A DNA stretch of 64,000 nucleotides, taken from Halobaculum saliterrae (GTDB lineage Archaea; Halobacteriota; Halobacteria; Halobacteriales; Haloferacaceae). Below the pieces are notes generated by a model. That model saw only the letters and a list, made by a program, of their open reading frames with translations, had not been told where the DNA came from and did not search any database. Within the stretch, counting starts at the first letter, position 1, and the number at the start of each line of letters is the position of its first letter. Location of the stretch: the NCBI RefSeq assembly GCF_009831625.1, contig NZ_WUUS01000006.1, positions 1 through 64,000 on the forward strand. Reading direction: 5' to 3'. A program made the position numbers and the translations under genes. Positions 10,977 through 14,227 of the stretch are shown here, piece by piece.

Positions 10977-12371
10977 ATGTTCGACGACGAGGTCGCCGCC
11001 CGCATCCGCGACGACCGCGAGCGCGACGGCTCCCTCCTCCCCGACTACGGCCGGTACTGCTTCGCCGACGTCCCCGCGACCCTCGGCGGGGTGCTCGGCG
11101 TCGACCTTCCGGGCGACCCGCTCCCGGACGATGTCGTCGCGGACGTACCCAGCCTCGCCGGCACGTCGCCCGAGGATGACACCGACTACGACCGCGTCTG
11201 TCACGTGCTCGTCGACGGCTTCGGCTTCGAACAGTGGCGCCGCGAGGTCGCCGCCGGACGTGCGCCCGACTGGGTCGCCGACCTCGCGGAAACCGCGCGC
11301 GTGACCCCGCTCACGTCCGTCTACCCCTCGGAGACCGCGGCGGCGATCACGACCGTCCACACCGGGCTGACGCCGGCGGAACACGGCGTGATCGGGTGGG
11401 ATATGTACCTCCCCGAGGTCGACCGCGTGATCCAGACCCTGCCGTTCACGTCGAAGTCCGGCGAGCCGGCCGACGAGGCGTACGGCGTCGACGCGGCGGA
11501 CCTCTTCGCAGGCGGGTCGATATACGAGCCCATGTCGGCCGCGGGCGTCGACTCGGTCACCGTTCAGCCGATGAAGGCGGCGACGGGCGCCTACTCCGCA
11601 CACGCCCTCGCCGGCGCCGACTCACGCGGGTACGAGGACCTCGACGGCTTCCGGACGCTGTTGACCGAGGCGCTTTCCGAGTCCGACCCCGGAACCTACT
11701 GCTACGCGTACCTCTCGGACGTGGACGGCGCGGCCCACGAGGCCGGCACCGAATCCGACCACTACCGGGAGACGCTGCAAGCGGTCTCCGACGCCGTCTC
11801 GACGGCGCTGGCAGACGTTCCGGACGACGTCGCCGACTCGACGCTGTTCGTGCTCACCGCGGACCACGGCCACGTCGACACCGACCCCGAGACCAACGTC
11901 GACATCTGGGAGCACGAGTTCCTCACCGAGCGCATGCGCCGCTACGAGACCGGCGCTCCGGCCGGGTACCCGCTCACGGGGGGGAGCGAGGGAGGGGACG
12001 GCGCCGACGACGCCGGAAGCGACGAACGCACGGCGGGCGGCGTTCCGCTCCCGCCGGTCGGCGGCGCGCGCAACGTCCACCTCCACCTGCGGCCGGGGAC
12101 GACCGAGGAGGTGGTCGACTACCTCGACCGGACCTTCGAGGGACGGGCGTTCACCCGGGAGGAGGCCCTCGACCAGGGGCTGTTCGGCGACCGCGGCGCC
12201 TCCGACCGCTTCCGCCGGCGCTGCGGCGACGTGGTGTTCGTCCACCGACGGAAGGCCGTCTGGCGCGGCGACGAGCCGGGGAAGCTCGGCTACGTCGGCT
12301 GGCACGGCGGGCTGACGCCCGAAGAGATGGTGACGCCGTTCGCGGTCGCGCCGCTGTCGGACGTGATCTGA
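10977..12371 (+). CDS. alkaline-phosphatase-superfamily protein (nucleotide pyrophosphatase-like)
   Basis: 464 residues. DGFGFEQW binds the first metal, the PSETAAAITTVHTG segment supplies the nucleophilic Thr/Ser, and SDVDGAAHEAG and TADHGHVD give the later Asp/His ligands of the type I phosphodiesterase fold. There is no signal peptide, so it acts in the cytoplasm. An acidic insertion at about 335-355 is low-complexity. It follows the mutase gene by 130 bases on the same strand. Substrate unknown. Confidence 0.85.
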   Translation: MFDDEVAARIRDDRERDGSLLPDYGRYCFADVPATLGGVLGVDLPGDPLPDDVVADVPSLAGTSPEDDTDYDRVCHVLVDGFGFEQWRREVAAGRAPDWVADLAETARVTPLTSVYPSETAAAITTVHTGLTPAEHGVIGWDMYLPEVDRVIQTLPFTSKSGEPADEAYGVDAADLFAGGSIYEPMSAAGVDSVTVQPMKAATGAYSAHALAGADSRGYEDLDGFRTLLTEALSESDPGTYCYAYLSDVDGAAHEAGTESDHYRETLQAVSDAVSTALADVPDDVADSTLFVLTADHGHVDTDPETNVDIWEHEFLTERMRRYETGAPAGYPLTGGSEGGDGADDAGSDERTAGGVPLPPVGGARNVHLHLRPGTTEEVVDYLDRTFEGRAFTREEALDQGLFGDRGASDRFRRRCGDVVFVHRRKAVWRGDEPGKLGYVGWHGGLTPEEMVTPFAVAPLSDVI

Positions 12372-12400: not shown

Positions 12401-12883
12401 TCACCGCGTCACGTCCGCGTCCGCCGGGAGCGTTCCGAACAGACGGTCGTCGCGTTCCTCCACCTCGAACCCGAGCGCCTCGTAGAACAGTCTCACTTGG
12501 GCCCGGAACGTCGCAGTCAGCGGCGCATCGGTCCGTTCGGCCGCCGCCGCGACGAGCGCGGTGCCGACGCCGTCGGCCCGCCGGTGCTTACGCACCGCGA
12601 CGGCGTCGACATGGCCGCCGTCGAGCACGAGCGCACCGACCACGTCGGTCGATTCGGTTCCGATCTCCTTCGCCACTGCGACCAGCACGTCGCCGCCGCC
12701 GACGCGCTCCGGGAGGTTCGCCGGAACGGTCAACATCGCCGCGTCGAGGAGGTGCCTGACGGCGTCCGTCTCGTCGTCGCGGGCGGTCCGGATCGACACG
12801 TCGGCATCCGAGACGGTGCCGGCGTCGGGGGCGGTGTCGCCGTCCGCGCCTCGCTTCGATTCGCCGTCGTCGCCGCCGGTCAT
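12401..12883 (-). CDS. GNAT-family N-acetyltransferase
   Basis: 160 residues. After an acidic 25-residue leader comes the GNAT fold: VSIRTARDDETDAVRHLL (first strand and helix), VDAVAVRKHRRADGVGTAL with the acetyl-CoA loop (R-x2-G-x-G/A type), and FYEALGFEVEER near the C terminus. The ATG overlaps the TGA of samp2 (12880-12883), so the two are probably co-translated. The acceptor is unknown: protein N terminus, lysine or small molecule. Confidence 0.85.
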   Translation of the reverse strand: MTGGDDGESKRGADGDTAPDAGTVSDADVSIRTARDDETDAVRHLLDAAMLTVPANLPERVGGGDVLVAVAKEIGTESTDVVGALVLDGGHVDAVAVRKHRRADGVGTALVAAAAERTDAPLTATFRAQVRLFYEALGFEVEERDDRLFGTLPADADVTR

Positions 12884-13080
12884 CCGCCCTTGATCAGCCT
12901 GAGCACCTTGACCTCGCTCGACTCGACGGGGGCGTCCTCCGGGACGGGGCTCCCGTCCACGAGCACCGTCACCTCGTGGGGAGAGTAGCCGGTCGCCCGG
13001 CACACGTCGGCATAGGTCGCGTCGTCGTCGAGCGAGAGGGTCTCGGTGCCCTCGCCGACGACCTCGCAGGTCACGTCCAT
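12880..13080 (-). CDS. samp2: ubiquitin-like small archaeal modifier protein SAMP2
   Basis: 66 residues with a beta-grasp pattern, [16 protein letters not shown] in the middle and the diagnostic tail [10 protein letters not shown]. The C-terminal Gly-Gly is adenylated by the E1-like UbaA and then joined to lysines of target proteins or used as a sulfur carrier for tRNA thiolation. Length and ending match Haloferax SAMP2. It overlaps the acetyltransferase gene downstream and is divergent from rfcS. The ATG at 13080 gives the exact family length. Confidence 0.95.
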
Positions 13081-13237: not shown

Positions 13238-14227
13238 ATGAGCGAGGCCGACGACGGCGAGGCCGCCGAGTCCTCCCCCGGGCGGGAGGTCTGGATCGAG
13301 AAGTACCGCCCGCAGACGCTGGAGGACGTGTACGGACACGAGCAGATCGTCTCCCGGCTCCGCAGCTACATCGAGCAGGACGACCTGCCGCACCTCCTCT
13401 TTGCAGGACCGGCAGGTGTGGGAAAAACCACCTCGGCGGTCGCCATCGCCAAGACGATCTACGGCGACGACTGGCGGACGAACTTCCTCGAGCTCAACGC
13501 TTCCGACCAGCGCGGCATCGACGTGGTTCGCGACCGGATCAAGAACTTCGCGCGCTCGTCGTTCGGCGGCCACGACTACCGGATCATCTTCCTCGACGAG
13601 GCCGACTCGCTGACCGACGACGCGCAGTCGGCGCTGCGGCGGACCATGGAGCAGTTCTCCGACAACACGCGGTTCATCCTCTCGTGTAACTACTCCTCGA
13701 AGATCATCGACCCGATCCAGTCGCGGTGTGCGGTGTTCCGCTTCTCGCCGCTCTCCGACGAGGCCGTCGAGGCGCAGGTCCGCGACATCGCCGCCGATCA
13801 GGACATCGAGATCACCGACGACGGGCTCGACGCGCTTGTGTACGCCGCCAACGGCGACATGCGCCGCGCGATCAACTCCCTGCAGGCGGCCGCGACCACG
13901 GGCGAGATCGTCGACGAGCAGGCGGTCTACGAGATCACCGCGACCGCCCGTCCGGAGGAGATCGAGGCGATGGTCGAGGACGCGCTCGCGGGCGACTTCT
14001 CGAAGTCGCGGGCGACGCTCGACACGCTGCTCACCGAGACGGGGATGGCCGGCGGCGACATCATCGACCAGCTCCACCGGTCGGTGTGGGAGTTCGGCCT
14101 CTCGGACCCGGAGGCGGTGCGGCTGATGGAGCGCATCGGCGACGCCGACTTCCGCATCACCGAGGGCGCCAACGAACAGGTGCAGCTGGAGGCGCTGTTG
14201 GCGTCGCTTGCGCTGGCGAACGAGTAG
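13238..14227 (+). CDS. rfcS: replication factor C small subunit (clamp loader)
   Basis: 329 residues. An AAA+ ATPase with [13 protein letters not shown], Walker [10 protein letters not shown] (57-65), Walker B FLDEAD (118-123), the arginine finger in SRC (near 165) and the C-terminal collar domain. With the large subunit it opens PCNA and loads it on primed DNA. A short acidic leader (1-17) precedes the conserved start. No intein is present. The leaderless TATA spacing supports the ATG at 13238. Confidence 0.96.

Follow-up and report, generated by a model that had tools for sequence, protein, structure and literature searches.

SAMP2, a GNAT acetyltransferase and an optional redoxin as a linked and sometimes fused gene module of haloarchaea

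The gene for the ubiquitin-like modifier SAMP2 and a GNAT acetyltransferase gene, which overlap by four bases in the DNA analyzed here, belong to a three-part haloarchaeal module, SAMP2 - AhpC/TSA-type redoxin - GNAT, and all three pairwise fusions of its members occur in nature (SAMP2=GNAT, SAMP2=redoxin, and redoxin=GNAT). Our preferred reading, to which we give a probability of about one in two, is that SAMP2 and the GNAT serve one haloarchaeal pathway with the redoxin as an optional member, that the GNAT works beside SAMP2, and that the fused forms are precursors cut after the diglycine (GG) by a JAMM protease. The window, that is, the whole stretch analyzed, comprises 64,000 nucleotides of Halobaculum saliterrae (contig NZ_WUUS01000006.1, positions 1 to 64,000). 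Neither the redoxin nor the fusions occur in the window, which is why the original prediction, made from it, did not include them. The relevant features of the window are the following:

12880..13080, minus strand: SAMP2 gene, 66 aa, ending ...VLRLIKGG, with stop codon TGA at 12882-12880
12401..12883, minus strand: GNAT acetyltransferase gene, 160 aa, assigned by Pfam match and fold model
12880..12883, minus strand: four-base overlap ATGA, made up of the SAMP2 stop and the GNAT start
12883..12891, minus strand: Lys-Gly-Gly codons of the SAMP2 C-terminus, from the translated frame and GG conservation
12563..12580, minus strand: acetyl-CoA pyrophosphate loop of the GNAT, residues 102-107 (RADGVG), from conservation in 135 linked GNATs
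13238..14227, plus strand: replication factor C small subunit gene, a divergent neighbor that marks the boundary and lies outside the module

The identity of the modifier is secure by profile search, with matches to PF21965 (E 2.2e-30, 105.3 bits, cut-off 27) and NF041919 (112.6 bits, cut-off 70). Using phmmer, it also matches the solved H. volcanii SAMP2 (2l32 and 4hrs) at E about 1e-23 (1.5e-23 for 2l32), and its C-terminal diglycine is present (...LIKGG, then the stop). The GNAT passes the Pfam cut-offs for PF13508 (30.2 bits, cut-off 27) and PF13673 (26.7 bits, cut-off 23.6). A ThiF-family E1 is encoded in the window's own genome (271 bits to PF00899). Since the two genes are flanked by a divergent gene on one side and, on the GNAT side, by a convergent gene ending at 12371, they probably form a two-gene unit, from which SAMP2 and the GNAT would be co-translated.

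The plus-strand gene that starts at about 13238 is presumably RfcS, a name given by motif. In two genomes of the window's genus (loci L006 and L010), the replication factor C gene beside SAMP2 appears to be interrupted after the P-loop (GVGKC-TTGETP...) by an intein-like stretch; the window's own copy is without it.

As the original prediction had it, SAMP2 and the GNAT share the bases ATGA at 12880-12883 of the minus strand. As to whether this overlap is kept across haloarchaea, it is kept within the window's genus, where the -4 overlap is present in 11 of 11 genomes (the window's own included), and falls short of being universal: in the wider genome set, an exact -4 gap occurs in 34 of 96 adjacent pairs (<250 bp apart), the gap lengths depending on the start codon picked by the script. 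ATGA overlaps are frequent in haloarchaeal operons, so the overlap alone is weak evidence, and we have set it aside as evidence by itself. The strong part of the case for SAMP2 and GNAT is conservation together with the fusions, not the overlap. In one genome of the window's genus (G008; L023/L030, G008:C1:2116505-2116701), the match to SAMP2 falls into two reading frames and contains a TGA, a frameshift or sequencing error.

SAMP2 was found in 290 of the 292 genomes of the class, and a GNAT of the SAMP2-linked kind likewise in 290 of 292, a count in which paralogues are possibly included. SAMP2 placements were listed for 294 genomes, and 160 loci from 78 genera were read as sequence. Because one to three genomes were read per genus, genus counts are uneven; loci at contig ends without the full 3.3 kb downstream were retained. 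A GNAT was called linked if it scored at least 80 bits and lay downstream of SAMP2, on the same strand and within 3.3 kb.

Adjacency in other genera had been named beforehand as the point on which the proposed pairing should be judged, and it holds: the GNAT is linked downstream of SAMP2 in 135 of the 160 genomes (78 genera). These 135 loci comprise 99 without an intervening redoxin, 22 in which the GNAT lies behind a redoxin gene, and 14 fused forms. One further genome has a redoxin alone nearby, and in 24/160 SAMP2 stands without either partner inside 3.3 kb, so the link is not obligatory. Of 7128 pairs of linked genomes from different families, 1031 share homology in the upstream flank and 1899 in the flank past the GNAT; the SAMP2-GNAT pair is thus retained while the surrounding genes shuffle. 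In 48 of the 135 linked loci, a replication factor C gene is found no more than 700 bp upstream of SAMP2. At four loci of named organisms (L299, L306, L325, and L345), 0.9-3.3 kb separate SAMP2 from the GNAT with no redoxin match between them.

Several genomes depart from this arrangement. A good GNAT match is absent in G020, G025, G027, and G294 (best 31-44 bits), and in the last three of these (families f9 and f11) the SAMP2-like proteins end in SGG, not KGG. Three genomes of genus g5, each in few contigs (G014, G320, and G323), gave no SAMP2 match, and their genus mates have SAMP2. All three retain E1, JAMM, and redoxin; a GNAT-family match at 1e-6 is absent in G320 and weak in G014 and G323 (69 and 74 bits). 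Given those weak matches, co-loss of SAMP2 and GNAT was rejected as proof of a link and is suggestive at most. A search of 246 genomes of the phylum (43 in the class, 203 outside) found no module outside the class; 29 of the outside genomes gave matches, all to the Ubl part except in G570, which has a weak match to the GNAT part (8.6e-6). Going by these searches, we take the SAMP2-redoxin-GNAT module to be confined to the class Halobacteria.

The third partner, found between SAMP2 and the GNAT in many genomes, encodes a redoxin of the AhpC/TSA family that carries an RDxxCxxC motif. All three of the redoxins tested match PF00578 (55.6-75.1 bits, cut-off 26). The first cysteine of the CxxC is present in 38 of 43 and the second in 42 of 43; as one or the other is replaced in some (the first in 5/43, the second in 1/43), the redoxin of the module may not be a classical peroxidase. 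A true redoxin is absent from the window's own genome (best match 51.6 bits) and from many further genomes. It is retained in the three genomes of g5 that gave no SAMP2 match, and therefore has a role of its own; in six genomes where SAMP2 sits elsewhere, redoxin and GNAT are still side by side. Among Urm1-type modifiers, yeast Urm1 is conjugated to the peroxiredoxin Ahp1. One paper reports the same for an archaeal Urm1 in yeast (PMC12645042), and another names two peroxiredoxins as preferred Urm1 targets in Saccharolobus (PMC12625751).

The original prediction had tied the GNAT to SAMP2 by inference from the overlap; natural SAMP2=GNAT fusions now take the functional link well beyond that. 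SAMP2 and GNAT share a single stop-free frame in all eight genomes of genus g28, which matches Haloplanus; the fusion protein of G098 (g28) is identical, letter for letter, to a protein of Haloplanus ruber. Isolated cases, one uncultured genome each, are the metagenome-assembled G029 and the uncultured A07HR67. SAMP2=redoxin was found in 8 of the 160 genomes (four genera, two families) and also in seven named Halorussus loci, in each case with the GNAT further downstream. In genus g39, three of six genomes were read as sequence; the SAMP2 frame of another member, G282, is short (84 aa), so it is probably unfused. In genus g3, 3/3 genomes have the redoxin=GNAT form, immediately preceded by SAMP2. 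Mapped onto the tree of GNATs, SAMP2=GNAT requires three changes and SAMP2=redoxin four, and the starred branches force at least two changes for each; these are minimal counts, because 39 of the 76 inner branches are open.

The junctions of these fusions deserve a closer look. GG is present at every SAMP2 fusion junction, and KGG in all fusions of g28 and Halorussus. The linkers that follow differ in sequence and range from a few to about 50 residues in length, most of them beginning with A, S, or G directly after GG. Modeling of the Haloplanus fusion gave two confident domains (mean pLDDT 92.8), with residues 67-69 (GG+1) as the one segment below a pLDDT of 50, so that the junction is predicted to be disordered exactly at GG. 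The order of Ubl-GG and then, in the same frame, another folded domain is found in other genomes; in the window, the genes are separate. Each fused genome examined has one SAMP2 match, and all 17 fused genomes examined encode a ThiF-type E1 and at least two Prok-JAB (JAMM-type) proteins. E1 and JAMM are also required for SAMP1 and SAMP3, so their presence in fused genomes gives weak support. Published work reports that an archaeal JAMM cleaves linear SAMP precursors (PMC6043591) and that archaeal JAMM proteases cleave SAMP conjugates (PMC5587910). The best reading of the fused forms is that they are precursors that would be cut after GG by such a protease. In some SAMP2s, the frame runs on for 1-17 residues past GG (L014 in G019, L016 in G017, and genomes of g5, g21, and g29), and these proteins would therefore be precursors requiring C-terminal processing; the tails of 1-11 residues seen in some unfused SAMP2s suggest a need for the same kind of cut.

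What the GNAT acts on is harder to read from its structure. Its model has a pLDDT of 82 and a pTM of 0.66, and can be superposed on solved GNATs along some 120 residues. The acetyl-CoA loop (R/Q-x-x-G-x-G/A) reads RADGVG, and over the 135 linked GNATs its R102 is conserved in 97%, G105 in 98%, and G107 in 100%. Within the same set, Tyr134 is conserved, as are Arg32 (90%) and Arg147 (95%); at residue 93, a position where a catalytic acid might be expected, 31% have E and 28% have D. The best VIA-align match of the model is ArgA with bound glutamate (5yge, Z 15.6 over 123 residues, 2.3 A), and EctA-type and NAGS enzymes are also among the fold matches listed. Ard1, Naa10, and RimI structures are among the closest as well (Z 13.8-14.9, with Ard1 at 14.9). 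ArgA, Ard1, and diaminobutyrate acetyltransferase lie within about 1.2 Z of each other; protein and amino-acid acetyltransferases score alike, and the comparison separates no GNAT subfamily. The absence of a family from the fold-match list is uninformative.

GG is present in every SAMP2 of the 160-genome set, and KGG is found in 132/160, including 110 of the 135 GNAT-linked proteins. SAMP2 is lysine-free in 15 of the 160 genomes; all 15 belong to the 135 linked cases, none to the 25 unlinked, and the SAMP2 of G029 is lysine-free although fused to its own GNAT. Acetylation of SAMP2's lysines, a version of one of the targets first proposed, therefore does not hold as a general role, and we have rejected it as such. 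Similarly, 77 of 129 GNATs are themselves lysine-free, so the GNAT is not in general a lysine-sampylated target. Of the 78 sampylation sites mapped in H. volcanii, 24 are acetylated as well (PMC10294847); from these shared sites, protein targets common to both modifications are the simplest idea for the GNAT. The same paper reports that its acetylome data set contained no SAMP, which speaks against the preferred reading. The candidate targets for the GNAT are thus shared proteins, another enzyme of the pathway, an alpha-amine, or a small molecule.

According to our preferred reading, the GNAT would be a dedicated acetyltransferase beside SAMP2, a Urm1-like protein modifier and sulfur carrier. 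It would most likely acetylate lysines of the proteins that SAMP2 marks under oxidative stress, or another enzyme of the pathway, and most likely not SAMP2 itself. In the fused lineages, the JAMM protease would cut the Ubl-GG-enzyme precursor after GG, releasing SAMP2 and its partner, be it acetyltransferase or peroxiredoxin, in equal numbers. A bolder version is that this is an undescribed module in which SAMP2 is produced, in several lineages, exclusively as a JAMM-cut Ubl-GG-enzyme precursor, the Urm1-peroxiredoxin connection known from yeast being hard-wired in archaeal genomes and acetylation serving as a counter-mark; we put it forward tentatively, with the odds somewhat against it.

Other explanations should be weighed against this. 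The GNAT could act on a small molecule, such as an amino-acid alpha-amine or a thiol or sulfur acceptor tied to sulfur carriage by SAMP2, with the redoxin handling a persulfide or disulfide and protein acetylation not involved. The glutamate-bound ArgA as best fold match, the EctA-type and NAGS enzymes beside it, and the conserved Arg32 and Arg147, which would suit an acidic substrate, all lean this way; in addition, SAMP2 is required for tRNA thiolation, and bacterial sulfur-carrier clusters that include JAMM proteases and activated acceptors are known. However, N-terminal acetyltransferases of archaea and humans reach scores no more than 1 Z away (Ard1 14.9), no gene of sulfur metabolism stood out in the loci as read, and we consider a small-molecule role rather unlikely. 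The same N-terminal enzymes invite the thought that the GNAT is an alpha-amine acetyltransferase that caps new or nascent protein N-termini, for example, those exposed by cleavage after GG. The A, S, or G that mostly follows GG in the fusions would fit, and so would the 15 lysine-free proteins, as no SAMP2 lysine is needed; but unfused species, which need no such cleavage, keep the GNAT, and fold resemblance alone gives no function, which makes this capping role unlikely in our view, a step below the small-molecule one. Were the GNAT instead to control chain formation by acetylating SAMP2's own lysines, gene adjacency and the frequent KGG of linked SAMP2s would be expected; that lysines are missing in 15/135 linked versus 0/25 unlinked proteins, and from the fused SAMP2 of G029, makes this very unlikely.

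Two further explanations concern the link and not the substrate. The fusions may stay uncut, SAMP2 having become a tethering or targeting domain whose free function was lost or taken over by SAMP1 or SAMP3. The single SAMP2 match per fused genome and the wide range of linker lengths are what one would then see; on the other hand, a tether would not need the GG kept in all fusions, or the KGG in all those of g28 and Halorussus, and E1 and JAMM are retained in 17/17 fused genomes, so we regard uncut fusions as rather improbable, much like the small-molecule role. Finally, the operon could be conserved and incidental, with no functional link at all. The genes lie apart in 24/160 genomes, and within one genus the flanks of the pair are conserved too; yet across families these flanks shuffle far more than the pair does, and the parts are fused in three ways, with more than one change on the tree for two of those, which would be odd company for an accident. 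To this last explanation we give the least credence of all.

Returning to the preferred reading of one shared pathway, its interest comes from SAMP2 being a model for the origin of ubiquitin-type tagging from sulfur carriers; protein conjugation by H. volcanii SAMP2 is known from published papers. An acetyltransferase dedicated to SAMP2, together with a partner akin to peroxiredoxins, both indicated by natural fusions and so by more than one overlap, would add two candidate parts to the SAMP2 pathway, would give a genetic reason for the sites common to archaeal sampylation and lysine acetylation, and would link the yeast Urm1-peroxiredoxin partnership to archaea. Whether the module acts in one pathway is testable in H. 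volcanii, for which the tools exist.

The plain SAMP2-GNAT adjacency is already known. It was published for Halobacteria in 2010 by Makarova and Koonin (Table 1, arCOG00535-arCOG04721; PMC2948915), with the GNAT beside SAMP2 as arCOG04721, and our loci show the same neighborhood. It differs in that its accessible text and tables mention neither a SAMP2 fusion nor a redoxin for Halobacteria; MoaD-MoaE, Ubl-Cgi121, and Jab-E1 are the fusions listed, and OsmC-type peroxiredoxins are placed next to Ubl genes in Thermococcales. In the open-licence PMC literature, we found no follow-up of arCOG04721, no SAMP2=GNAT or SAMP2=redoxin fusion, and no haloarchaeal redoxin neighbor, so the three-part module and its fusions are what we have not found in print. 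Among haloarchaeal members of the GNAT superfamily, HvPat1, HvPat2, and Elp3 of H. volcanii (HVO_1756, HVO_1821, and HVO_2888; PMC12607858) are encoded at loci other than samp2 (HVO_0202), and are set apart from the present GNAT by locus only.

As a modifier, the protein described here resembles others of the SAMP2/Urm1 type in its SAMP2 Pfam and NCBIfam matches, its GG end, and the E1 and JAMM genes of its genome; it differs in that its gene adjoins or is fused with that of a GNAT, an AhpC/TSA redoxin, or both, and in the short tails that some members carry after GG. Precursors of ubiquitin and a ribosomal protein exist. The haloarchaeal fusions share with them, and with the archaeal SAMP/Ub precursors described in PMC6043591, the order of Ubl-GG and then an in-frame protein or tail; they differ in that the partner is an acetyltransferase or a redoxin and that cleavage here is a prediction. 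Like the urmylation of Ahp1 by Urm1 in yeast, the module couples a Urm1-like protein to one of the peroxiredoxin superfamily, whereas the haloarchaeal coupling is known from genes alone, as neighbors or fusions, and brings in the GNAT as well.
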